From Acetohalobium arabaticum DSM 5501 (lineage in GTDB: Bacteria; Bacillota; Halanaerobiia; Halobacteroidales; Acetohalobiaceae), in NCBI RefSeq assembly GCF_000144695.1, contig NC_014378.1:842781-906780 (forward strand): a stretch of 64,000 nt of DNA. Reading direction: 5' to 3'. This document shows positions 3,685 through 20,496 of this stretch, piece by piece. The notes beneath the pieces are model-generated. The model searched no databases and was not told where the DNA came from. It worked only from the letters and a program-made list of their open reading frames with translations. How positions within the stretch are numbered: position 1 is the stretch's first letter; the number at the start of each line of letters is the position of its first letter. Both the position numbers and the translations under genes were made by a program.

Positions 3685-3715
3685 AGGCAAATGATGTTAT
3701 AAAACTTAATATTGC

Positions 3716-3893
3716 GCAGTAATTAGGTGCTTCTAGCTATTGGTTAGAAGATAATAGGGAATCAGGTGCAAATCCTGAACGGGTCCGCCACTGTAACTGG
3801 CAGATTAAGCTTGGTATACCACTTGGATACTTAAGTATCCAGGGAAGGTAAAGCTTGACGATAAGCCAGAAGTCAGGAGACCTACCTAATTGC
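3716..3893 (+). promoter_or_regulatory. Cobalamin riboswitch 1 (AdoCbl aptamer)
   Basis: The core blocks of the B12 aptamer are all present: GGGAATCAGGTGCAAATCC at 3757, the GGGTCCGCCACTGTAACTGG segment at 3781, and a B12 box (AGCCAGAAGTCAGGAGACC) at about 3864-3882. Outer helix P1 pairs the AATTAGGTG side near 3721 with CCTACCTAATTGC at 3881-3893. It controls the first cobalt ECF operon; B12 binding is expected to favour the terminator at 3953. Confidence 0.93.
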
Positions 3894-3952
3894 TTAGCCT
3901 ACTTTTATCTTCGATGACAAGAAGAGTAGGTAATTAGTGTAGGGCTAATTAT

Positions 3953-3990
3953 CCTCAATCTTGTTGATCAAGATTGGGGATTTTTTATTT
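3953..3990 (+). terminator. Riboswitch 1 intrinsic terminator
   Basis: The hairpin CCTCAATCTT / AAGATTGGGG is followed by TTTTTTATTTT. It lies 60 bases past the aptamer and 130 bases before the first gene, which is the layout of a transcription-terminating expression platform. Confidence 0.88.
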
Positions 3991-4082: not shown

Positions 4083-4865
4083 ATGAGACGAATTAGTTCA
4101 ATTTTATTATTAAGTTTAATTTTAGTATTAGGAGTTACAGTAGCTGCTTCAGCTCACTTTCAAATGATCTTACCTTCAGATGATGTAGTTATGCAGGGGG
4201 AGGAGCGAGAGATAGATTTAGACCTTGTCTTTACTCATCCAATGGCTGGACATACTATGGATATGGAGAAGCCAGCCAAGTTTGGTGTTTTACATAAAGG
4301 TACTAAGAAGAGTCTGGTAGATACTTTAGAACCGTCCAAGATTAAGGGGCGCGATGCCTTTGAAACTTCTTATCGGCTTAGAGGGTTTGGAGACTTTGTC
4401 TTCTATGTGGAACCAGAACCTTACTGGGAATCTGCGGATGGAGTTTATATTACTCAATGTACAAAAATGGTTGTTAACTCCATGGGAGTAGCCAGTGACT
4501 GGGGTAAAGAAGTTGGTATGAAAGCAGAAATTGTTCCGTTAACTCGTCCTTACGGTCTTTGGACGAACAATGTCTTTACAGGAGTTGTCAAAAAGAACGG
4601 CAAGCCGGTTCCTTATGCTGAGATAGAAGTAGAGTACTTTAATGAGGGTAAATTTTCTAAGTTAGCAGGAAATGAAGTAACTGAACTACCGAATGAAACT
4701 TTTACTACCCAAGTAATTAAGGCTGATAAAAATGGAGTCTTTACCTATGCTATGCCTAAATCAGGCTGGTGGGGCTTTGCGGCTTTAATGGAAGGTGAGC
4801 CAGTTAACGGTAAAAGCCATGAGATAGGAGCAGTTATGTGGGTTAAAACGCATGATATGAAGTAG
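4083..4865 (+). CDS. DUF4198 periplasmic component of Co2+/Ni2+ ECF transport (NikK/CbiK-type, COG5266), copy 1
   Basis: 260 residues with a Sec signal peptide (residues 1-25, cut near SASAHF), so the mature protein begins with the [10 protein letters not shown] motif typical of DUF4198. The mature N-terminal His may bind metal (inference from family). The domain is a beta-rich fold with a late [10 protein letters not shown] motif and [20 protein letters not shown] near the end. COG5266 proteins are encoded with CbiM/NikM importers; their biochemical role is not established. It is the first gene after riboswitch 1. It is close to the copy at 17080 throughout. Confidence 0.85.
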   Translation: MRRISSILLLSLILVLGVTVAASAHFQMILPSDDVVMQGEEREIDLDLVFTHPMAGHTMDMEKPAKFGVLHKGTKKSLVDTLEPSKIKGRDAFETSYRLRGFGDFVFYVEPEPYWESADGVYITQCTKMVVNSMGVASDWGKEVGMKAEIVPLTRPYGLWTNNVFTGVVKKNGKPVPYAEIEVEYFNEGKFSKLAGNEVTELPNETFTTQVIKADKNGVFTYAMPKSGWWGFAALMEGEPVNGKSHEIGAVMWVKTHDMK

Positions 4866-4882
4866 TTATCTGTTAAAGTAGA

Positions 4883-4918
4883 AGGCCTCCCTTGAAGTTA
4901 AGTAATCAAGGGAGCCTC
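4883..4918. terminator. Hairpin between DUF4198 gene 1 and cbiM1
   Basis: A 12-base stem (AGGCCTCCCTTGA with TCAAGGGAGCCT, one mismatch) without a U-run after it on either strand. It probably damps read-through or protects the upstream mRNA end rather than fully terminating. Confidence 0.5.
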
Positions 4919-4965
4919 CTATTAATTAATAGATTTAGAAGTTATCTTGAAAGGAAGGTGATAGG

Positions 4966-5604
4966 ATGCATATTTCTGAAGGTGTTCTTTCAGCGCCGGT
5001 ATTATTAACAGGAGCTGCTACAACGGTTGCTGGAGTTGCTGTTGGTTTAAAAACGATGGATAATGAAGATATTCCGAAAACAGCTATAGTTTCTTCGGCT
5101 TTATTTGTAGCTTCATTGATTCATATTCCTTTAGGACCGACCAGTGTTCATCTTATTCTTAACGGAGTTGCTGGTATATTATTAGGGTGGCAGGTTTTTC
5201 CTGCATTTCTTATAGCTTTATTTTTACAGGCAGTATTATTTCAATTTGGAGGGCTTACTTCTTTGGGCATGAATACAATTAATGTAGCACTTCCTGCTAT
5301 TGTCGGTTATTATTTATTTAAATCCTTGTTAAAGTTTAATCGTAATGATAAGCAGTTGTTTTTAGGTGTGATATCTTTTGTTTGTGGAATAGTTCCTGTC
5401 TTTTTGACTACCATTATGCTAGCTATTTCGCTTGTGTTTACGAATGAATCTTTTTTAGAAGTAGCCCAGCTTACTATAGTCAGTCATCTACCTGTAATGG
5501 CTATTGAAGGAATTATTAGTGCTTTTGCTATAATTTTTATTAAGAGAGTTAAACCAGAAATGTTAAAAGGAGTGATCGGTAAAAATGAAGAGTTTAAAAT
5601 TTAA
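4966..5604 (+). CDS. cbiM: CbiM, substrate-binding subunit of cobalt ECF transporter, copy 1
   Basis: Integral S-component that binds Co2+ (or Ni2+) through its extreme N-terminus. The protein begins MHISEGVLSAPV, keeping Met1-His2, the residues that co-ordinate metal in this family, so the start is certain. About seven membrane segments are seen in 212 residues, with the conserved SALFVASLIHIPLGPTSVHL block around residues 45-65. It overlaps the next gene by 20 bases. Cobalt rather than nickel is inferred from the cobalamin riboswitch. Confidence 0.94.
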   Translation: MHISEGVLSAPVLLTGAATTVAGVAVGLKTMDNEDIPKTAIVSSALFVASLIHIPLGPTSVHLILNGVAGILLGWQVFPAFLIALFLQAVLFQFGGLTSLGMNTINVALPAIVGYYLFKSLLKFNRNDKQLFLGVISFVCGIVPVFLTTIMLAISLVFTNESFLEVAQLTIVSHLPVMAIEGIISAFAIIFIKRVKPEMLKGVIGKNEEFKI

Positions 5605-6241
5605 GAAAAAATTATCTGCTTACATTCCATTTACTATCTGTATTGCTTTGGTAATAGCTTTAATATTAACTTTACCGGCCTATGCCCATAGAGTTATTTC
5701 TTATTCTTATGTTGAAGGAGATAGTGTTGTTGTTGAAGGAGCTTTTGATGATGGTAGTCCTACTAAAAAAGCCAAAGTAAAAGTTTATAATTCTTCTGGT
5801 AAGGTGATTAATAAAGGAAAAACTAATGCTCAGGGAATATATAAGTTTGAAGTATCAAAGAAGGATGATTTAAAGATTGTGCTAGAAGCAGGTATGGGTC
5901 ATAAAGCAGAATCTAATATTAAACAGGAGGATCTGCCTGAAGTAGCTAATTCAAGTACTCAACAACAGACTAAGGATAATTCTAAACAGAGTTCTATTCA
6001 AGAATCTACTACAACTACTGGAATTAGTGAAGATAAATTGCGTTCTCTTATCAGAGAAGAATTGTCAAAAGAGTTATCTGAGAAATTACCCCAGGAGATA
6101 GCACCGATAAAGAGAAGTTTAATTCAGCTTAAGAATAAAAAAGGACCTGGCGTTACTGAAATTTTAGGGGGGATAGGTTATATCTTTGGCTTAATGGGAA
6201 TTGCATTCTATTTTAAAGCCAAAAGGAGTGAAGTAGCTTGA
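5585..6241 (+). CDS. CbiL/NikL-like accessory membrane protein of the cobalt ECF transporter, copy 1
   Basis: 218 residues: an N-terminal signal or anchor (about 12-34, ending in LPAYAHR), a small beta-sandwich domain (about 35-110) that resembles carboxypeptidase-regulatory-like folds, a Gln/Ser/Thr linker, a short coiled region, and one C-terminal membrane helix (about 188-207). The mature end HRVISYSYVEG begins with His, like the CbiN/NikL group. It replaces CbiN in KMLQO-type operons. ATG 5585 has AAGGAG upstream and overlaps cbiM; its stop overlaps the TTG start of cbiQ. Confidence 0.8.
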   Translation: MKSLKFKKKLSAYIPFTICIALVIALILTLPAYAHRVISYSYVEGDSVVVEGAFDDGSPTKKAKVKVYNSSGKVINKGKTNAQGIYKFEVSKKDDLKIVLEAGMGHKAESNIKQEDLPEVANSSTQQQTKDNSKQSSIQESTTTTGISEDKLRSLIREELSKELSEKLPQEIAPIKRSLIQLKNKKGPGVTEILGGIGYIFGLMGIAFYFKAKRSEVA

Positions 6242-7002
6242 TTGATGAAAAATTTACTGAGGGATCTACCTGGGTTCACCAGTTAGATCCCCGAATAAAG
6301 ATTGTAATAACTATGATGTTGGCAGTAGTAACAGCAGTGGGAAAGAATGTAGATATGTTACTGGTAGCCTTTGGTTTTTCTGGTTTGCTGTTAATAACTG
6401 CTAGACTTGATATAAAAAAGGTAGGAAAACGGTTATTAATAGTTAATAGTTTTATTTTTTTAATGTGGTTGATTTTACCGTTTACGTATCCAGGAGAAGG
6501 TTTATTCCAAGTTGGACCTTTAATAGCTTCTCGTGAAGGTGTTATATATACAGCAAAGATTACTTTAAGATCTAATACCATTATGTTGATCATGATTTCT
6601 TTACTTTCTACTTCCGCTATGTCATCAATTATTCATGCTATGAAGTATCTATATATACCAGAAAAGCTTATCTATTTATTGTTCTTTATTTATCGATATA
6701 TACATGTGATTAAAACTGAATTTGGTAATCTTTATAGTGCTATGTTATTGAGAGGTTTTAAACCAAATACAACTATTCATTGTTATAAATCTTATGCTTA
6801 TTTAGTAGGTAGGTTGCTTATAAAAAGCTATGAACGTTCTCAAAGAGTTTATGAAGCAATGACGTGTCGTGGTTTTAAGGGTAAATTTTATATACTGGAT
6901 AATTTCAATCTTTCTTCACTTGATTATTTAGTTTTTGTTGGTTCTTTATTTTTGGTTAGTTGTTTAGTTATGTTAGAGTCTGGATATTTGATGTTGAAAT
7001 AA
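6238..7002 (+). CDS. cbiQ: CbiQ, T-component of cobalt ECF transporter, copy 1
   Basis: 254-residue membrane protein that couples the ATPase to CbiM. It begins with TTG at 6238, overlapping the previous stop codon (TTGA), with AAGGAGTGA just upstream. Several hydrophobic helices fill residues 20-150. Two coupling motifs of the X-R-G type are visible: MLLRGFKPN near 160 and AMTCRGFKGK near 200. Confidence 0.92.
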   Translation: MIDEKFTEGSTWVHQLDPRIKIVITMMLAVVTAVGKNVDMLLVAFGFSGLLLITARLDIKKVGKRLLIVNSFIFLMWLILPFTYPGEGLFQVGPLIASREGVIYTAKITLRSNTIMLIMISLLSTSAMSSIIHAMKYLYIPEKLIYLLFFIYRYIHVIKTEFGNLYSAMLLRGFKPNTTIHCYKSYAYLVGRLLIKSYERSQRVYEAMTCRGFKGKFYILDNFNLSSLDYLVFVGSLFLVSCLVMLESGYLMLK

Positions 7003-7189
7003 TGATCTGTAGTTGTTTTAAATCTAAAACTTCCGCCTTCACTGAGTACATATCCAGTATTTTTTAGTTCGGGATATCTTGACAGAAGCTATAGAACCGT
7101 CTTCTTTTTCAGTGATTTTAGCTGATGAAGCAGGAAATTCATTAGCTTTAACAGAAGACTTTACTATGGAGGAAGGAGTTTATAATTTT
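7003..7189. other. Non-coding or vestigial stretch between cbiQ1 and cbiO1
   Basis: No intact gene. The plus frame is open back to about 7040 and joins cbiO, but its amino acids match nothing I know. On the minus strand two neighbouring frames read as plausible protein (about 7190-7070 and then 7072-7000, the second containing YVLSEGGSFRFKT), which suggests a frameshifted gene fragment. Both readings are weak. Confidence 0.3.
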
Positions 7190-7816
7190 ATGATTAAAAT
7201 CAGGAATCTTTCATTTCAATATCCAGATGGCACACAAATTTTAGATAACTTTAATCTTACTGTCCAAGAAAATGATAGGATAGCTTTAATTGGTCCTAAT
7301 GGTACTGGAAAGACGACTCTTTTTAAAATTATAATGGGACTATTAATTCCTCAGGAAGGCGAGGTTATTATTTTTGGCAAACAACGTAAAGAAGAAGAAG
7401 ATTTTGTTGAAGTGAGAGAAAAGATAGGATTTTTATTCCAGGACTCTGATGATCAATTATTCTGTTCTACTGTAGAAGAAGATATTGCTTTTGGACCTTT
7501 GAATTTAGGAAAGAGTAAAGAGAAAGCAATGGAGATTGTTAGTGAGACCTTGGAACTAGTGGATATGCAGGGATTTGAAAAGAAAACACCTTATTCTCTA
7601 TCAGGGGGCGAAAAGAGAATGATTGCTTTTGCTACTATACTGGCCATGAAACCAAAGTTATTACTGCTTGATGAGCCCTTTGCTGGTTTAGATAAAGATG
7701 CAACTGAGAAGATGCTTTCCATTTTAACTGAGATTGACTTACCTTATGTAATTATTTCTCATCGAAATTCTTTAGTAAAAGAAGTTACAGATGATTCTTA
7801 TTATCTAAATCGATAA
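7190..7816 (+). CDS. cbiO: CbiO, ATP-binding subunit of cobalt ECF transporter, copy 1
   Basis: ABC ATPase of the importer. Walker A is GPNGTGKTT, the signature is LSGGEKR, Walker B is LLLLDEP and the switch His is in ISHR. ATG 7190 is preferred over the upstream TTG at 7079 because the sequence MIKIRNLSFQYPDGT is where CbiO proteins normally begin and GGAAGGAG lies 11 bases ahead. The resulting 208 residues are shorter than the usual 250-280; the C-terminal region after the switch His is reduced. It is separated from cbiQ1 by about 190 bases of apparently vestigial sequence. Confidence 0.88.
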   Translation: MIKIRNLSFQYPDGTQILDNFNLTVQENDRIALIGPNGTGKTTLFKIIMGLLIPQEGEVIIFGKQRKEEEDFVEVREKIGFLFQDSDDQLFCSTVEEDIAFGPLNLGKSKEKAMEIVSETLELVDMQGFEKKTPYSLSGGEKRMIAFATILAMKPKLLLLDEPFAGLDKDATEKMLSILTEIDLPYVIISHRNSLVKEVTDDSYYLNR

Positions 7817-8559: not shown

Positions 8560-8635
8560 ATATATTACTATTATGAAAAACGTGTTATTTTTTTACTAAT
8601 GTAGTGTTACTTTTTTATTAAAAATATCATAATCT
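8560..8635 (+). promoter_or_regulatory. Direct-repeat promoter element, copy 1
   Basis: GTGTTA at 8582 and again at 8604 (22 bases apart), each followed by a T-run, then ATTAAAAATATCAT. A weaker TATTAC-like unit lies about 20 bases further upstream. It sits 25-75 bases before the RBS of the first lipoprotein gene and recurs near 13330, 15753 and 18376. Confidence 0.6.
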
Positions 8636-11645: not shown

Positions 11646-12728
11646 ATGGAAATAGAATCTATTGGTACTGTCAAGAGCAAATTTGATGAACCGGCTGATC
11701 CGGAGGAGATGCAAAAAGAGGAAAGTACTATTATAATTAAGCCGGAGTATGAAGAAGGTCTCTATCGAATTGAGGATAATGATTATCTGCAGGTAGCATT
11801 CCAGTTCCATCTTTCAGATAGTTATGAGCTTAAGGCTCCCCGGCGGCATGGAAGAGTAAGAGGCGTTTTTGCTTCTCGCAGTCCTAACCGTCCCAGTTCT
11901 ATCGGGACTACCTGTGTAGAGCTACTTGAGCGGCAGGGAAGAAGGCTTAAGATAAAGGGGCTAGATGCTGTAGATGGAACTCCAATACTTGATCTTAAGC
12001 CTTATGCAGCAATTATGGATAAACCAGATGATGACTTTGCTGATAAAAAAGAAGATCCTCGGGCAGAGATTAACCATTTGATCAGAAGCCATGATTTAGA
12101 GTCTCTTTTAATTAAGGCTGGTGAATTGCACGGCCATTTCTGTCCTTACGTTAGTCTAGGAGTTATAGCTGGGGCTTATGCTCTGGATGAATTAGGTTTA
12201 AAGTCAGCCGGTATGGAGGATGTAGTGGCTATTGTAGAGACCAATAGCTGCTTTAGCGATGGAGTTCAGTATGCTACCGGCTGCAGCTTTGGTAATAATG
12301 CCTTAATCTACCGCGACTATGGCAAAACGGCTGTTACAGTAGCAAAACGGGATGGAACAGGAATTCGACTCTATGTTAAGGATAATGATGAGCTTCTAAG
12401 TGAGTATCCTGAAGCAGAAGAGCTTTTTGATAAAGTTATTGTGAATCGTGCTGGAACTAAAGAGGATAAGAAACGTATTAATCAATTATGGAATGAGATA
12501 GCCTTTGAGTTAATAAGAAAGCCAGTCGACGAGTTATTTAATATCGAAGAAGTGAATGCTGAGCTGTCGGAATATGCTCCAATCTTTGAAGATGCTTTCT
12601 GTAATGACTGCGGCGAGAAGATTATGGGGCCTAAGGCTGTTTCAAAAGAGGATAAAGACTTATGTATTTCCTGTGCCGATGCTGATTATCTACAGCTTGA
12701 TGGTCGTGGATTAGTAGAGGTTGAATAA
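11646..12728 (+). CDS. TrmO-like (TsaA) and FmdE fusion protein with zinc ribbon
   Basis: Three parts are visible in 360 residues. Residues about 1-125 are a TsaA/TrmO-type SAM-binding beta barrel (IGTVKSKF, RRHGRVRGVFASRSPNRPSS). Residues about 140-300 match FmdE (PF02663): AGELHGHFCPYVSLGVIAG and a Cys-containing TNSCFSDGVQYATGCSFGN. The last 50 residues hold a zinc ribbon, CNDCGEK ... CISCADAD. FmdE-like proteins bind metal, but their role outside methanogens is unknown. Translation follows the ATPase gene by 23 bases with AAGGAG upstream, so it belongs to the import operon. It may process an imported metal complex (inference). Confidence 0.8.
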   Translation: MEIESIGTVKSKFDEPADPEEMQKEESTIIIKPEYEEGLYRIEDNDYLQVAFQFHLSDSYELKAPRRHGRVRGVFASRSPNRPSSIGTTCVELLERQGRRLKIKGLDAVDGTPILDLKPYAAIMDKPDDDFADKKEDPRAEINHLIRSHDLESLLIKAGELHGHFCPYVSLGVIAGAYALDELGLKSAGMEDVVAIVETNSCFSDGVQYATGCSFGNNALIYRDYGKTAVTVAKRDGTGIRLYVKDNDELLSEYPEAEELFDKVIVNRAGTKEDKKRINQLWNEIAFELIRKPVDELFNIEEVNAELSEYAPIFEDAFCNDCGEKIMGPKAVSKEDKDLCISCADADYLQLDGRGLVEVE

Positions 12729-14536: not shown

Positions 14537-15628
14537 TTGCAGAAAAAGAAGTGGTTCAGCTTATTAGTAGTAACTGTAGTTTCTATGTCAGTTTTGATTG
14601 GAGGGTGTGCTGATAATCAGGCCCAGCAGACAGTTGAGAAGACCGAAATAACTGATTTATCCGATAGAAAGGTTGAGATTCCCCGGCAAGTAGATAGAAT
14701 TGTGGCTTTAGGTTCAGGAGCACTGCGGCAGATAGTATATCTGGGTGCTGCGGATAAGGTTGTTGGTGTGGAAGAGATTGAACATCGTAAAGATAATTAT
14801 GCTCCTTATAATCTAGCTCATCAAGAATTTAGGGATCTGCCGACAGTAGGGCCTAATCATGGAGGAGATGCAGAGTTAATAGCGGCTCAAGCGCCAGATG
14901 TAATCTTCTTTAAAGGTGATCCTGGTGAAGCCAAGGATTTACAGCAGAAGACAGGAATACCGGTAATTAATTTGGCAGTTGGTGATTTTCCGCGGCGGGA
15001 TGAGGTTCTTTATCAGTCCTGGCGTTTGATTGGCAAGATACTGGATAGAGAAGAGAGAGTAGAAGAATTAATTCAATATATGGAAGATTCAATTGCAGAT
15101 CTTAAAGAGAGGACAGTTGGAATTTCTGATCAACAGAAACCAGAGGTTTATGCCGGCGGTATAACTCACCGCGGAGGACACGGTATTGCTGGTGCCAAGG
15201 AGCCTTTTCCTCCATTCCAATTTGTTCAGGCTAAAAATGTTGCTGGTGAGTTGGGACATAAAGAAGTTACGTCTGTGATGGTTAGTCGGGAGAAAATATT
15301 AGACTGGAATCCAGAGATTATCTTTATTAATAGTGCTAATGAGAAGTTAGTTAAAGGAGATCTACAGAAGCATTCTGAATATAAATCCTTGACTGCTATT
15401 GAAGAGGATAAAGTTTATGGAGTGCTGCCCTATTCTTATTACCACCGTAATTTTGGTTCGATATTGGCTAACTCATATTATATAGGTAAGATTCTTTATC
15501 CTGACAGGTTTAGTGATATTGATCCAGCAGCAAAGGCTGATGAAATTTATAAAGAATTTATAGGAAAAGCAGTTTATGATCAAATGGAAGAGAAAGTTGG
15601 TGGATTTAAAAGAGTTAAGCTAGATTAA
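14537..15628 (+). CDS. FepB/BtuF-type substrate-binding lipoprotein 3
   Basis: 363 residues, lipobox Cys24 (LIGGC), TTG start at 14537 with AAGGGGG upstream. Nearer to lipoprotein 1 than to 2: it shares GPNHGGDAELIAAQAPDVIF, a RGGHGI block near residue 215 and PFPPFQF. It follows lipoprotein 2 by 37 bases and is probably co-transcribed with it. Confidence 0.82.
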   Translation: MQKKKWFSLLVVTVVSMSVLIGGCADNQAQQTVEKTEITDLSDRKVEIPRQVDRIVALGSGALRQIVYLGAADKVVGVEEIEHRKDNYAPYNLAHQEFRDLPTVGPNHGGDAELIAAQAPDVIFFKGDPGEAKDLQQKTGIPVINLAVGDFPRRDEVLYQSWRLIGKILDREERVEELIQYMEDSIADLKERTVGISDQQKPEVYAGGITHRGGHGIAGAKEPFPPFQFVQAKNVAGELGHKEVTSVMVSREKILDWNPEIIFINSANEKLVKGDLQKHSEYKSLTAIEEDKVYGVLPYSYYHRNFGSILANSYYIGKILYPDRFSDIDPAAKADEIYKEFIGKAVYDQMEEKVGGFKRVKLD

Positions 15629-15650
15629 TATAACCCCCTTAATAAATGGT

Positions 15651-15686
15651 GATTCAATCTCATCTAATCTTAGATGAGATTGAATC
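15651..15686. terminator. Perfect 16-base-pair hairpin after lipoprotein 3
   Basis: GATTCAATCTCATCTA pairs perfectly with its complement across a 4-base loop. On the plus strand it is followed by AAAAAATAGAAAAAAT, not by U's, so it is a hairpin without a classical U-tract. Confidence 0.5.
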
Positions 15687-15744
15687 AAAAAATAGAAAAA
15701 ATCATAAATAAAAGAAGGGATTTCTAAATTTGTATAGAATATAA

Positions 15745-15826
15745 TACATAGAGTGTTATGAAATAATTATTTGTGTTATTTTTTTAAGATTTTAGTGTTA
15801 CTTTTTTTATAAAAATAATATTAGAT
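15745..15826 (+). promoter_or_regulatory. Direct-repeat promoter element, copy 3 (three units)
   Basis: GTGTTA occurs at 15753, 15773 and 15795, spaced 20 and 22 bases, about two helical turns. The last unit is followed by a T-run and TATAAAAATAATATT. It is the fullest copy, yet only an 18-codon reading frame follows. Confidence 0.6.
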
Positions 15827-15835
15827 AAGGTGGTG

Positions 15836-15892
15836 ATGATAAAAAAGAATGTTGAGGATTATGATATGGACTATCTGAGTAAAGTAACCTAA
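15836..15892 (+). CDS. 18-codon reading frame behind promoter element 3
   Basis: ATG 15836 has AAGGTGG a few bases upstream and the frame ends with TAA at 15890. The peptide is too short to assign. It may be a micropeptide or, more likely, the surviving start of a deleted gene: the promoter region resembles that of lipoprotein 1, and a hairpin follows at 15894-15927. Confidence 0.35.
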   Translation: MIKKNVEDYDMDYLSKVT

Positions 15893-16162
15893 TACTCTCC
15901 CCATCTCTGGTCAAGATGGGGAGAGTAAAAAAGTAGAAAAAATTAAAAGTTATAAGAAGTTAACAAGACCAAAATTGATAATATGAGCATGATATATAAA
16001 ATTATTAGGCTCTTCCACGAATTTTGTGATAAATGATTCAGTTGTCTAAATGATGCTTAAATAACTGGAAATTAGTTAATTTAATTCCAAATTTTAAATA
16101 GTTCAAAATTTGCGGCAACTAATTATTATAAGTTGAAAGAAAAAGGACAATAGATCTAAGAG
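15893..16162. other. Intergenic stretch with hairpins before the porin pseudogene
   Basis: Holds a 15-base hairpin at 15894-15927 followed by AAAAAAG on the plus strand, another A-rich AAAAAAGTAGAAAAAAT block, and a nested inverted repeat at 16070-16124 (AATTAGTT...AACTAATT enclosing CAAATTTT...AAAATTTG). No gene is seen. Confidence 0.5.
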
Positions 16163-16211
16163 ATGAAAAGGATCATTGGTGAACAAAAAGTGCAAAAGGA
16201 GGAAATTAATA

Positions 16212-16864
16212 ATGAAAAAATTTCAATTGTATTAGCTTTGGTGTTAATAGTAACTATGGCTGTACCAGCTATGGCATTAGAATTCCAGAAAGGTAAGATG
16301 AAAGTAGAGAATAAGTATAAAGATGTTGATGATTCCAATGAAGACGGTAGTGGGACGAAGGCTAAAACATATTTGTTCTTAAAGCAACAAGTAGATAAGC
16401 AGGTAAGTATCTTTACATTATTGCGAGTAGATTATGATTTTGCTAATCAAAAATCAACGGAGACAAAAACTTTTATTAGAAAAGGATGGATTAATGTAGA
16501 GAATGCTGTTGGTCCATTAGATTTTCGTGCCGGTAGACTGGATGAAGCTGCTGCTAATAACTTATTATATGATATGGAACGCAAGTATGAATTTGCTAGA
16601 GCAACTTATGATTCTAAAGATTTTGCTATTAAAGCAGGACATAGTTTTGAAGATAAAAATGCAGGAAAGATATTCTTTACCGAAGCTAAGGCTAAGAACT
16701 TAGGTTTATTTGAGACTGTAACTTTGAATTATGTTGATAATAATGAACTTGCTTATGAAGGTTATAGTGTTGCTTCTGCTAAGGAGTTTGGTGTAGCTAA
16801 TTTAGATTTTACGTATGGAGATGCAGATAATGATGCTGATGATCTTACTTCTAATGCAAAATAA
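16212..16864 (+). pseudogene. Truncated and frameshifted outer-membrane porin-like gene
   Basis: A good RBS (AAAAGGAGG) precedes ATG 16212, but that frame stops after seven codons (TAG). The neighbouring frame encodes a signal peptide (IVLALVLIVTMAVPAMALEF) and a beta-barrel-like mature part. Adding one A to the A-run at 16215-16220 would restore MKKISIVLALV. The protein stops at about 230 residues in DLTSNAK, without a C-terminal Phe strand, and its end abuts a riboswitch-derived sequence. The long open frame from 16163 has no RBS. A base error in the sequence could explain the frameshift but not the missing 3' end. Confidence 0.7.
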
Positions 16865-16869
16865 AGGAT

Positions 16870-16962
16870 TCTTTTATTTCTTCGATGACAAGAAGAGTAG
16901 ATAATTAGTGTAAGGTTAATTATCCTCAATCTTGTTTATCGAGATTGGGGATTTTATAATTA
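16870..16962 (+). other. Leftover riboswitch expression platform without aptamer
   Basis: Nearly identical to 3903-3992 downstream of riboswitch 1: TTCGATGACAAGAAGAGTAG, the TAATTAGTGTA block, and the CCTCAATCTTG / GAGATTGGGG terminator stem. No aptamer core exists upstream; the porin fragment occupies its place. The U-tract is weakened here to ATTTTATAAT. Confidence 0.75.
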
Positions 16963-17079
16963 AGATTACTCCCAATCTCTTGTCTATCATAGCTGAGAAT
17001 TTTTTGTTTTGGGAGGTGATAAGTAAATTACTTGTTTGGTAAAGCTTAATAATGATTATTAAAAAGGGAGGAAATAAGG

Positions 17080-17871
17080 ATGAAACGAACTAGTTCTATC
17101 TTATTGTTGAGTTTAGTCTTGGTATTAGGAGTTACATTAACTGCTTCGGCACATTTTCAAATGATTCTGCCTTCAGATGATGTAGTTATGAAGGGAGAAG
17201 AGCAAACAATAGATTTAAATTTATTATTTACTCATCCAATGTCTGCTGCTGAAGTAATGGATATGGAACAGCCAAATAAATTTGGGGTTATACATAAGGG
17301 GAATAGGACTAGCTTATTAGACAGTTTACAGTCTAAAGAATTTATGGGCGGTAAGGGCTATACAACTTCTTATCAGCTTGAAAGATTCGGTGATTATACT
17401 TTTTATTTACAGCCAGGTCCTTACTGGGAACCAGCGGAAAGTAAGTATATTACCCACTGTACTAAAGTAGTAGTCAATTCTATGGGAGTTTCACAGAATT
17501 GGGACCAAGAAATTGGTATGAAAGCTGAAATAGTTCCACTTACTAGACCTTATGGTTTGTGGACAAATAACACTTTTAGAGGCGTTGTAATGAAGAATGG
17601 TAAGCCGGTGCCTAATGCTGAAGTTGAAGTTGAATATTTCAATCAAGCCAAGTTTGATTCATTGAAGCAGGATACTTATGAAAGTGTAGAACTCCCAGCA
17701 GATGTATTTACTACTCAGGTAATTAAAGCTGATAAGAATGGTGTCTTCTCCTATTCTATGCCTAAAGCCGGTTGGTGGGGCTTTGCGGCATTGATGGAAG
17801 GTGAACCAATCAATGGTAAGAGCCATGAATTAGGTGCTCTTATGTGGGTTAAAACTTATGATATGAAGTAA
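17080..17871 (+). CDS. DUF4198 periplasmic component of Co2+/Ni2+ ECF transport, copy 2
   Basis: 263 residues, clearly homologous to the copy at 4083 throughout: signal peptide ending [16 protein letters not shown] at the mature start, [10 protein letters not shown] in the middle and [13 protein letters not shown] at the end. The RBS AGGGAGGA lies upstream. Unlike copy 1, it follows only the remnant of a riboswitch, so it is probably not B12-repressed (inference). Confidence 0.84.
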
Positions 17872-17881
17872 CTTATAAAAT

Positions 17882-17914
17882 GCCTCACCCTAATTATGGG
17901 GTGAGGCAAAAAAA
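17882..17914. terminator. Hairpin between convergent genes
   Basis: GCCTCACCC / GGGTGAGGC stem. On the plus strand it is followed by A's; on the minus strand by ATTTTAT. It can serve the end of both the DUF4198 gene and the small minus-strand gene. Confidence 0.6.
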
Positions 17915-17936
17915 TGATTATTATTCTAATTGTTGC

Positions 17937-18167
17937 TTAGTGTAACTGCATAGAATTGATTTCTTGTAATAATTTTTCACCTTCGTTGATATGCTTTTTG
18001 AGGTGGTTTATTTCTTCTTGTTCTGCATTGGATTCTTTTAATTCTTCTAATTCTGTTTTGTGGGTTGCAATGGATCCTTTTACATCTTGATAAATTTCCA
18101 TAGCTTGAGCAAAATTTAAGTTATCTTTTTCTTGTTGGAACTTATGGCGCATGCTGTTACAGCTCAA
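17937..18167 (-). CDS. Small hypothetical coiled-coil protein
   Basis: 76 residues, charged, helical throughout (KTELEELKESNAEQEEINH), with two Cys-free halves and no known family recognised. TTG start at 18167 is supported by GGGAGG eight bases upstream on the minus strand. It lies antisense between the DUF4198 gene and cbiM2, splitting what is one operon in copy 1. Confidence 0.65.
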   Translation of the reverse strand: MSCNSMRHKFQQEKDNLNFAQAMEIYQDVKGSIATHKTELEELKESNAEQEEINHLKKHINEGEKLLQEINSMQLH

Positions 18168-18349
18168 TTATGATACCTCCCTATTAGTAGATTATAGTCT
18201 GTTTATTATTATTTTCTTAAAAAGAGCCAAAATTATAAATAAAATAGGGATTTGGAGTAATATTTTGAAATAGAAAACTTGAATTTTTGCAGGAGTTTGT
18301 TTACATTTGAAGAATAAATAAATATGAAATATTATTAATCTTGATAAGC

Positions 18350-18406
18350 TTGTTTGCAATTTTTTTGACCAAGTAGTGTTATTTTTTAAGTAAAAATATT
18401 ATTCAA
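18350..18406 (+). promoter_or_regulatory. Direct-repeat promoter element, copy 4
   Basis: TGTTTGCAATTTTTTTGAC at about 18352 and GTAGTGTTATTTTTTAAG at 18373, followed by TAAAAATATTATT. The unit and spacing (about 22) match copy 1. It lies 60 bases ahead of cbiM2 and suggests separate transcription of the second importer. Confidence 0.55.
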
Positions 18407-18466
18407 TATACATAATGAAAGTAGAACTAGCTTGGTATATTGGCTATGAAAAGGAAGGTGAATAAT

Positions 18467-19075
18467 ATGCATATTTCTGAAGGTGTACTTTCTGCGCCGG
18501 TATTAGTGGCTGGTGCTGCAGCAACGGCGGCAGGAGTTGGTGTAGGTCTAACAGGGATGAGTGATGAAGATATTCCTAAAACTGCTATTGTATCTTCGGC
18601 TTTATTTGTAGCTTCATTAATTCATATTCCCCTAGGTCCTACTAATCTACATCTTGTTCTTAATGGAATCGGCGGTATCTTATTGGGGTGGCAGATATTT
18701 CCTGCGTTTTTAGTCGCTTTATCCTTACAAGCAATTCTGTTTCAATTTGGAGGAATTACTGTATTAGGGATTAATACTTTTAATCTGGCTTTACCTGCTG
18801 TAGCTAGTTATTATTTATTTAAATTGTTACTGAACTTTAATCGAAGCGATAAAGAATTAGTGTTAGGTGGTATAGCTTTAATCTGTGGAATAGTAGCTGT
18901 GTTTTTGAGTACTATTATGTTAGCTATTTCGCTGGTATTTACTAATGAGTCTTTTCTTGAAATAGCTAAACTTACTGTAGTCAGTCAACTACCATTAATG
19001 TTAGTTGAAGGGATTAGTAGTGCTTTTATTATAACATTTATCAACAAGGCTAAGCCCGAAATTCTGGAGGGATAA
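18467..19075 (+). CDS. cbiM: CbiM, copy 2
   Basis: 202 residues starting MHISEGVLSAPVL, so ATG 18467 (RBS AAGGAAGGTG) is chosen over the upstream ATG at 18440: the family needs Met1-His2 at the free N-terminus. It is very similar to copy 1, with SALFVASLIHIPLGPT conserved. It lacks about 10 C-terminal residues relative to copy 1. Confidence 0.93.
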   Translation: MHISEGVLSAPVLVAGAAATAAGVGVGLTGMSDEDIPKTAIVSSALFVASLIHIPLGPTNLHLVLNGIGGILLGWQIFPAFLVALSLQAILFQFGGITVLGINTFNLALPAVASYYLFKLLLNFNRSDKELVLGGIALICGIVAVFLSTIMLAISLVFTNESFLEIAKLTVVSQLPLMLVEGISSAFIITFINKAKPEILEG

Positions 19076-19081
19076 GAGAAA

Positions 19082-19762
19082 ATGTTTAAAGTAGAATCTA
19101 ATAAAAGATCTTTATTATCCATATTCTTTTCTGTTGTTGTGATTCTGTTATTGACTTTAGTACTGACTCTTCCGGCCTATGCCCATAGAATTGTTTCTTA
19201 TGCTTATACAGAAGGAGATGAAGTTGTAGTTGAAGGAGCTTATGGTAATGGTAGTCCGGTTAAGGATTGTAAGGTGGTAGTTTATGATTCGCAAGAGAAT
19301 GTTGTTTATGAGGGCAGAACCGACTCCCAGGGTATCGCTAAATTTAAAGTACCAAAAAAATCAGATTTAAAGATAATAATGGATTCAGGAACAGGTCATA
19401 AATCAGAATCTATCATTGAAAAAGAAGAGCTGTCGGAAATAAAACCGGAGAATAAATTTCACAGTAATAAAGAGAATTCTAGTACTCAAAAGGTGACTCA
19501 AGATAATAATTCTGCTAAAGAGTCTGGAGTGGAGACTACTGGAATCAGTGAAGATAAGCTGCGTAAGATTATTCAGGAGGAAGTCTCCGAGGAGTTATCT
19601 GGGCAATTATCTAATGATATAGCTTCTATCAAGCGGGATTTAGTTCGCCTTAAAAAGAAAAAAGGTCCGGGAGTGGTTGAAATATTAGGTGGTTTAGGTT
19701 ACATTATGGGCTTGATGGGGATTGGTCTTTACTTTAAGACTAAAGGAGATGAGCAAGCTTGA
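19082..19762 (+). CDS. CbiL/NikL-like accessory protein, copy 2
   Basis: 226 residues with the same layout as copy 1: N-terminal hydrophobic segment ending LPAYAHR, beta domain to about residue 110, polar linker, and a C-terminal membrane helix (GYIMGLMGIGLYF). The mature N-terminus HRIVSYAYTEGDEVV keeps the His start. Its stop overlaps the TTG start of cbiQ2. Confidence 0.8.
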   Translation: MFKVESNKRSLLSIFFSVVVILLLTLVLTLPAYAHRIVSYAYTEGDEVVVEGAYGNGSPVKDCKVVVYDSQENVVYEGRTDSQGIAKFKVPKKSDLKIIMDSGTGHKSESIIEKEELSEIKPENKFHSNKENSSTQKVTQDNNSAKESGVETTGISEDKLRKIIQEEVSEELSGQLSNDIASIKRDLVRLKKKKGPGVVEILGGLGYIMGLMGIGLYFKTKGDEQA

Positions 19763-20496
19763 TTAATGAAGACTTTGCTGAAGGCTCTAGCTGGATTCAT
19801 AATTTAGACCCAAGGATAAAGATTATAGTAGCTATCATGTTGGCAGTGGTAACTGCAGTAGAGAAAGATTTAAGTGTGCTACTGCAGATATTTACAGCAG
19901 TCTGTTTTATTTTGATTACTGCCCGGCTCAATGGAAAAGAGATTCTTAAACGTTTACTGATGATTAATATATTTATTTTTTTGATCTGGTTGTTTCTACC
20001 TTTTACTTATCCTGGGGAGGTATTATTTCATTTTGGACCTTTAACTGCTTCGTATGAAGGAGTTATCTATACTCTACAGATTACTCTGCGTTCAAATGCG
20101 ATTATGTTGATAGTGATTTCTTTATTGTCTACTTCAACTATAACTTCACTTATTCATGCTATGGATTACTTATATATTCCTCAAAAATTAATTTACTTAT
20201 TCTTCTTTATCTATCGTTATCTATATGTAATTAGGGATGAGTTTTATACACTCCGCAATGCTATGCTACTGAGGGGGTTTAAAAGAGAAACGAGTATTCG
20301 CTGTTATAAGTCTTATGCTTATCTGATGGGGATGCTGTTGATAAGGAGTTATGAACGGGCCACAAGAGTTTATGAAGCAATGATCTGCCGTGGATTTAAC
20401 GGTCAATTTTACCTGATGGATGATTTTAGTTTATCAACACTTGATCATATAGTATTTGCAGGTTCTATCTGTTTGGTCAGTTGGGTGCTTGTATAG
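19759..20496 (+). CDS. cbiQ: CbiQ, copy 2
   Basis: 245 residues, TTG start overlapping the preceding stop as in copy 1. Coupling motifs AMLLRGFKRE and AMICRGFNGQ are intact. No cbiO follows directly: a riboswitch leader intervenes, so this set depends on an ATPase encoded elsewhere, either at 7190 or 21754. Confidence 0.91.
   Translation: MINEDFAEGSSWIHNLDPRIKIIVAIMLAVVTAVEKDLSVLLQIFTAVCFILITARLNGKEILKRLLMINIFIFLIWLFLPFTYPGEVLFHFGPLTASYEGVIYTLQITLRSNAIMLIVISLLSTSTITSLIHAMDYLYIPQKLIYLFFFIYRYLYVIRDEFYTLRNAMLLRGFKRETSIRCYKSYAYLMGMLLIRSYERATRVYEAMICRGFNGQFYLMDDFSLSTLDHIVFAGSICLVSWVLV

Follow-up and report, generated by a model that had tools for sequence, protein, structure and literature searches.

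What controls a metal importer whose genes are preceded by the terminator of a cobalamin riboswitch, with no cobalamin aptamer in front of it? The question is raised by a 64,000-nucleotide stretch of Acetohalobium arabaticum DSM 5501 (the window; C1:842781-906780 of a single-contig genome of 2,469,596 bases). The genome has nine cobalamin riboswitches as recognized by RF00174, seven of them at 827–901 kb, and four of the RF00174 matches at the gathering level lie inside the window. Riboswitch 1 (rs1), with its aptamer at 3708–3903 and its platform at 3900–3987, precedes and controls the nikKMLQO genes of set 1 (4083–7816). A second set of importer genes, set 2, spans 17080–20496, and the platform in front of it has its closest relative in rs1. 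The leader elements and genes of both sets, and the features described between 15690 and 20496, are on the plus strand unless stated otherwise. Genes of an IS607-type serine recombinase and a TnpB-like protein (L018 346–2489) are positioned between the B12 riboswitches at 834385 and 837226 of the contig, so that the first of these riboswitches now stands before transposon genes.

An expression platform without an aptamer

The orphan platform at 16871–16958 has been identified by a covariance model, RF00174 searches and alignment. The model, built from 13 family platforms of G000, G001, G002 and G003 with the orphan left out, detects it in the window with 94.5 bits (E 7e-16), compared with 97.2 bits for the platform of rs1 itself. 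In the alignment of 3902–3989 from rs1 with 16871–16960, 81 of 90 columns are identical and two columns are gaps; the platform cores are identical in 71 of 77 positions. The near-identity that the first-pass annotation had reported for 16870–16962 is thus borne out. The same annotation had held that the aptamer is missing, and had named a covariance search for an upstream aptamer core as the way to overturn its reading; a search of 15600–17100 with RF00174 returned no cobalamin aptamer at E ≤ 10. Furthermore, none of the four RF00174 matches of the window, or of the nine in the genome, is located at the orphan platform. The element is therefore homologous to the platforms of the family and lacks the B12-binding aptamer of RF00174, the loss of which would deprive the leader of set 2 of B12 sensing.

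The platform model was searched against five genomes, and its matches were compared by position with the list of aptamers. Of the 23 matches, 21 begin where an aptamer ends. The two without an adjoining aptamer are the orphan, which is the second-best match of all, and a weak one in G002. The latter (G002:C55:12905; 39.8 bits) was considered as a second aptamer-less platform and rejected, because no Rfam family matches it at E ≤ 1 and it does not contain the CTTCG core; it is probably an ordinary terminator matched by chance. The orphan shares the platform hairpin and terminator A with rs1 (RF00174, intrinsic-terminator platform, 3708–3987). By contrast with rs1, its aptamer is gone, its U-tract is broken, and a decayed second terminator follows. 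A literature search, with most of the subscription literature beyond its reach, found no title on this locus or on aptamer-less cobalamin platforms.

A porin gene broken at both ends

The place of the aptamer is occupied by a truncated porin pseudogene (16163–16864), recognized from the sequence, homology and Pfam comparisons. The encoded fragment is 37% identical to one porin of the same genome, and 50% and 47% identical to porins of G003 and G030, where the open frames are about 350 amino acids long. Relatives with open frames of about 340–385 amino acids are found in G003, G004 and G030, and there are two in the A. arabaticum genome. All three full-length relatives that were tested match the Pfam family Porin_4, and the fragment itself matches no Pfam family. 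The natural start codon, an ATG at 16212 behind the good ribosome site AGGAGG, is followed by a stop after seven codons, and the porin is encoded in another frame. Only the ATG at 16163, further upstream, opens that frame, and it has no clear ribosome site. The fragment aligns with its relatives as far as about residue 214 of 345, where the match ends; about 131 residues are absent from the 3′ end of the gene, including the conserved C-terminal Phe. Whereas the relatives possess both the in-frame start with its signal peptide and the full barrel with the C-terminal Phe, the fragment has neither end. The seven-codon frame and the lost 3′ part together indicate that the gene is broken at both ends, as the earlier description of a 3′-truncated, start-frameshifted porin in the place of the aptamer had stated. 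A genome search with the 3′ part of a related porin retrieved no separate piece; its matches were confined to the two remaining porins and the terminal part of this fragment. The scan of the named genomes with the porin gave no match.

A C-terminal porin-like fragment is located a few kilobases from a nikK gene in G030 (L050 3905–4195).

Two terminators damaged in different parts

Terminator A (16922–16952), characterized by the terminator listing, folding and T score, retains its 13-bp stem, with a folding energy of about −17.6 kcal/mol compared with −17.5 kcal/mol in rs1. Its U-tract is interrupted and reads TTTTATAATTAAG, as opposed to TTTTTTATTTTAAG in rs1. The T score of terminator A is the lowest of the 24 usable rows, which remain from 25 after the exclusion of L013, whose scored stretch missed its terminator; the weakening of the U-tract proposed in the first-pass annotation is confirmed by this comparison. 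The 59 nucleotides at 16965–17023 contain leader sequence and a second terminator, B, which has kept its T-run and lost its stem; the segment folds with only −3.3 kcal/mol. It is homologous to the leaders of the nikK riboswitch of G001, of L006, and of rs1, with scores that were reached in none of 300 shuffles. The comparisons with L008 and L011 are unremarkable, as 23 and 7 of 300 shuffles, respectively, reach their scores. Homologous material of the platform type extends to about 17023, beyond the end of the region delimited earlier. Terminators A and B are damaged in different parts, as expected once termination is no longer selected.

The c-di-GMP riboswitch Bc1 has a dual terminator (PMC11218506). 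The leader of set 2 resembles Bc1 in having two successive terminators behind one riboswitch, which several members of the family also appear to have by eye. However, Bc1 retains its aptamer; the leader of set 2 has lost it, and neither of its terminators is intact. Tandem terminators were seemingly present in 5 of 30 riboswitches inspected by eye (L009, L082, L086, L088 and L096). Insertion of an extra terminator copy was considered as the origin of terminator B and not adopted, because a native tandem platform is as likely, given these tandems.

In calculations of equilibrium folding, terminator A forms with a probability of about 0.98 in transcripts starting at 16700, 16800 and 16840, and antitermination is ahead only with the short start at 16862. 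The short fold from 16862 had raised the idea that the orphan antiterminates constitutively, which was discarded because the longer transcripts do not support it. Since terminator A is predicted to form so readily, partial attenuation likely remains there. The proposal that set 2 escapes B12 repression therefore holds for the loss of B12 sensing, but not for a free escape from termination.

An old importer set with a younger platform

Set 2 comprises nikK2 (DUF4198; 17080–17871), nikM2 (CbiM/NikM family; 18440–19075), a nikL2-like gene (19082–19762) and nikQ2 (CbiQ family; 19759–20496), so the K, M, L and Q components of a NikKMLQO importer are present. The assignment of nikL2 is based on similarity to set 1 and relatives, as its Pfam match (bMG3) is below the cut-off. 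No gene for the ATPase NikO is found between the end of nikQ2 at 20496 and the next riboswitch, and K-M-L-Q without O occurs likewise in G001, G003 and G004. Downstream of nikKMLQ, both here and in G004, come a B12 riboswitch and cbi genes. The long gap between nikK2 and nikM2 (17872–18440) contains a GTGTTAT site at 18376, upstream of nikM2, and a short minus-strand reading frame.

The proteins of sets 1 and 2 are 71% (K), 74% (M), 56% (L) and 66% (Q) identical, whereas those of set 1 and G001 are 79%, 85%, 72% and 79% identical, and trees unite set 1 with G001 to the exclusion of set 2 with a support of 100. Set 1 is closer to G001 than to set 2; therefore, the split between the two sets predates the split from G001. 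Judged by these protein comparisons, set 2 is an old nikKMLQ paralogue and not a recent duplicate. The trees place set 2 either as a sister to set 1 and G001 (AU 0.65) or with G003 and G004 (AU 0.36), and give no resolution on whether it is a strict orthologue of the G003 and G004 sets.

The platform has a different history. The core of the G001 nikK platform is identical to that of rs1 in 61 of 79 positions, fewer than the orphan (binomial P 0.0005, Fisher P 0.014). Because the orphan platform is closer to rs1 than its G001 counterpart is, it looks as if it was recopied from rs1 after the G001 split, by gene conversion or by a local copy. The earlier scenario of a duplication of the set followed by a deletion is not supported by this combination, as the sets separated before set 1 and G001 did, and the platform is much younger. 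A chimeric nikK2 with its 5′ end from set 1 was not accepted, since the signal in site patterns and site likelihoods is weak (permutation p 0.058 for nucleotides and 0.21 for protein); a conversion of the 5′ end, consistent with recombination from set 1, is only hinted at.

A putative NikR-type promoter upstream of the porin remnant

A putative NikR-type promoter and operator at 15690–15835, with GTGTTAY half-sites at 15753, 15773 and 15795, has been identified by alignments compared with shuffles and by a pattern search. The region aligns with the sequences upstream of trmO and nikK in G004, nikM in G005 and nikK in G003, in each case above 200 of 200 shuffles. Its alignment with a porin upstream region does not stand out, as 172 of 200 shuffles reach the score. 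The operator pattern, consisting of paired GTGTTAY repeats with a T-run, has 8 matches in 13 genomes, and the reversed pattern used as a control has none. Two places in the A. arabaticum genome carry the pattern, both in the window (before BP1 and before porin/nikK2). The others precede trmO and nikK in G004, nikK in G003 (twice, overlapping), the riboswitch and DUF4198 gene in G002, and nikMNQO-nikR in G005; all eight are at metal-transport loci.

GTGTTAC is the NikR half-site in delta-proteobacteria, and the published NikR sites are inverted repeats (PMC545781). The half-sites at 15690–15835 are of the GTGTTAC type and about 20 bp apart, but they are direct rather than inverted repeats. The genome encodes NikR 13 kb beyond the window. 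The half-sites are about 1.2–1.3 kb upstream of nikK2, a distance at which they need not regulate it. The promoter is followed by an 18-codon open reading frame (15836–15892), read from the sequence and possibly the remnant of a former gene there, and by a hairpin (15893–15929) that is visible in the sequence and absent from the terminator listing. A, rather than T, comes next on the plus strand; therefore, the hairpin is not an intrinsic terminator in that direction.

GTGTTAY repeats are also present at 8582–8616 and 13350. They stand upstream of BtuFCD/FecBCD-like transporter genes (8658 and 13393), a hint that these transporters may take up nickel chelates and be subject to NikR-type control. 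In G005, three GTGTTAY repeats in direct orientation precede the nikMNQO-nikR operon by less than 100 nucleotides (L186 6753–3817); they are likely a NikR operator with direct, not inverted, half-sites. A GTGTTAT...GTGTTAA pair precedes a gene for a binding-protein-dependent transport permease in G002:C55 (L209, around 1651–1680). The transporter cluster of the window includes a gene in which TrmO, FmdE and a DksA-type zinc finger are fused (11646–12728), and in G004 a TrmO-only gene stands before nikK.

Nickel or cobalt

The control regions of nikK differ among the relatives. The nikK genes of set 1 and G001 have a B12 riboswitch without the operator pattern, those of G003 and G004 have an operator directly at nikK without a riboswitch, and set 2 has an operator at a distance and a riboswitch relic close to nikK2. 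In G002, a GTGTTAY operator, an intact B12 riboswitch and a DUF4198 gene are arranged in series (L187 9484 to 7691), and it is possible that this arrangement provides double control by metal and B12. Zhang et al. assign nikKMLQO to nickel, except where a B12 riboswitch or B12 genes indicate cobalt (PMC2667541). Set 2 corresponds to the NikKMLQO nickel importers (PMC545781, PMC2667541) in the order of its DUF4198 NikK, NikM, NikL-like and NikQ components and in the occurrence of a NikR gene in the genome. It differs from them in lacking NikO and in the direct orientation of its operator repeats. The designation of set 2 as a cobalt set in the first-pass annotation is not upheld, because the promoter at 15690–15835 is homologous to the promoters of riboswitch-free nikK and of nikMNQO-nikR, which makes nickel the better guess. 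Set 2 is probably a nickel importer that passed from B12 to NikR-type control.

Origin of the leader of set 2

On balance, we consider it probable that the leader of set 2 is a cobalamin riboswitch from which the aptamer was deleted, and that the importer, most likely for nickel, is under NikR. One deletion would have removed the aptamer together with the last third of the neighbouring porin gene, leaving a join at about 16865–16870. The CCUACU/AGUAGG stem, which can shield the antiterminator strand in rs1, would have lost its 5′ arm as well, and the remaining leader would be unable to respond to B12. Terminator A would later have lost its U-tract and terminator B its stem, each of which would weaken termination. 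The promoter at 15690–15835 probably drives a transcript through the porin remnant and the relic platform into nikK2, and set 1 would stay a B12-controlled cobalt importer.

The platform could instead have arrived alone, converted from rs1 and never joined to an aptamer, and have served from the start only to terminate transcription after the porin remnant. Its likeness to rs1 (71/77) is far above that of the genes (56–74% protein identity), it is nearer to rs1 than the G001 counterpart is (61/79), and the 13-bp stem is retained. However, this course of events is unlikely, because terminator B and the leader behind it are also of the riboswitch-nikK type, a sign that nikK2 once had a complete riboswitch leader, and because the weakest U-tract of the usable set is poor for a retained terminator. 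If the riboswitch and the nik genes had been duplicated recently as one unit, with subsequent deletion of the aptamer to give a deregulated cobalt importer, the near-identical platforms and the K-M-L-Q order common to both sets would be explained. We regard this as improbable, since the sets are only 56–74% identical and split before G001 did, and the promoter upstream is of the nickel type.

Equally doubtful is the conversion of the relic terminator into a constitutive promoter of nikK2. The changes in the U-tract created the hexamer TATAAT (16955–16960), a sigma-70-like −10 element and possibly a weak new promoter, with TTGTTT 17 nucleotides upstream, and a transcript from it would pass the damaged terminator B unhindered. 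Nevertheless, the −35 hexamer has only three of six matches, the site is absent from the promoter-scan listing, and that scan found 11 sites where 8.5 are expected by chance. An error of assembly or base calling, concealing an aptamer or a longer run of A, could account for the start frameshift, which amounts to one base within such a run; it is very improbable in a single contig that is 99.6% complete, where independent lesions concur in the porin end, the U-tract and the second stem.

If the aptamer was indeed deleted from a complete riboswitch, the locus might, more tentatively, represent a handover caught midway, with a new direct-repeat NikR operator next to the fossil of the old B12 riboswitch. 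In sister lineages, importers of this family would be controlled by one of the two devices, a B12 riboswitch for cobalt or a NikR operator of direct repeats for nickel, and the operator and intact riboswitch in series in G002 could be the intermediate stage of such a handover. The relic may still be an attenuator that is blind to B12.

To our knowledge, a riboswitch is normally found either complete or absent. In this leader, the platform has outlived its aptamer, and sister lineages show intact, absent and serial arrangements; therefore, the exit from riboswitch control to a protein repressor becomes directly testable. The locus is also a warning that a near-identical terminator does not amount to B12 control. 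It leads to the prediction that the two look-alike importers of one genome would transport different metals.
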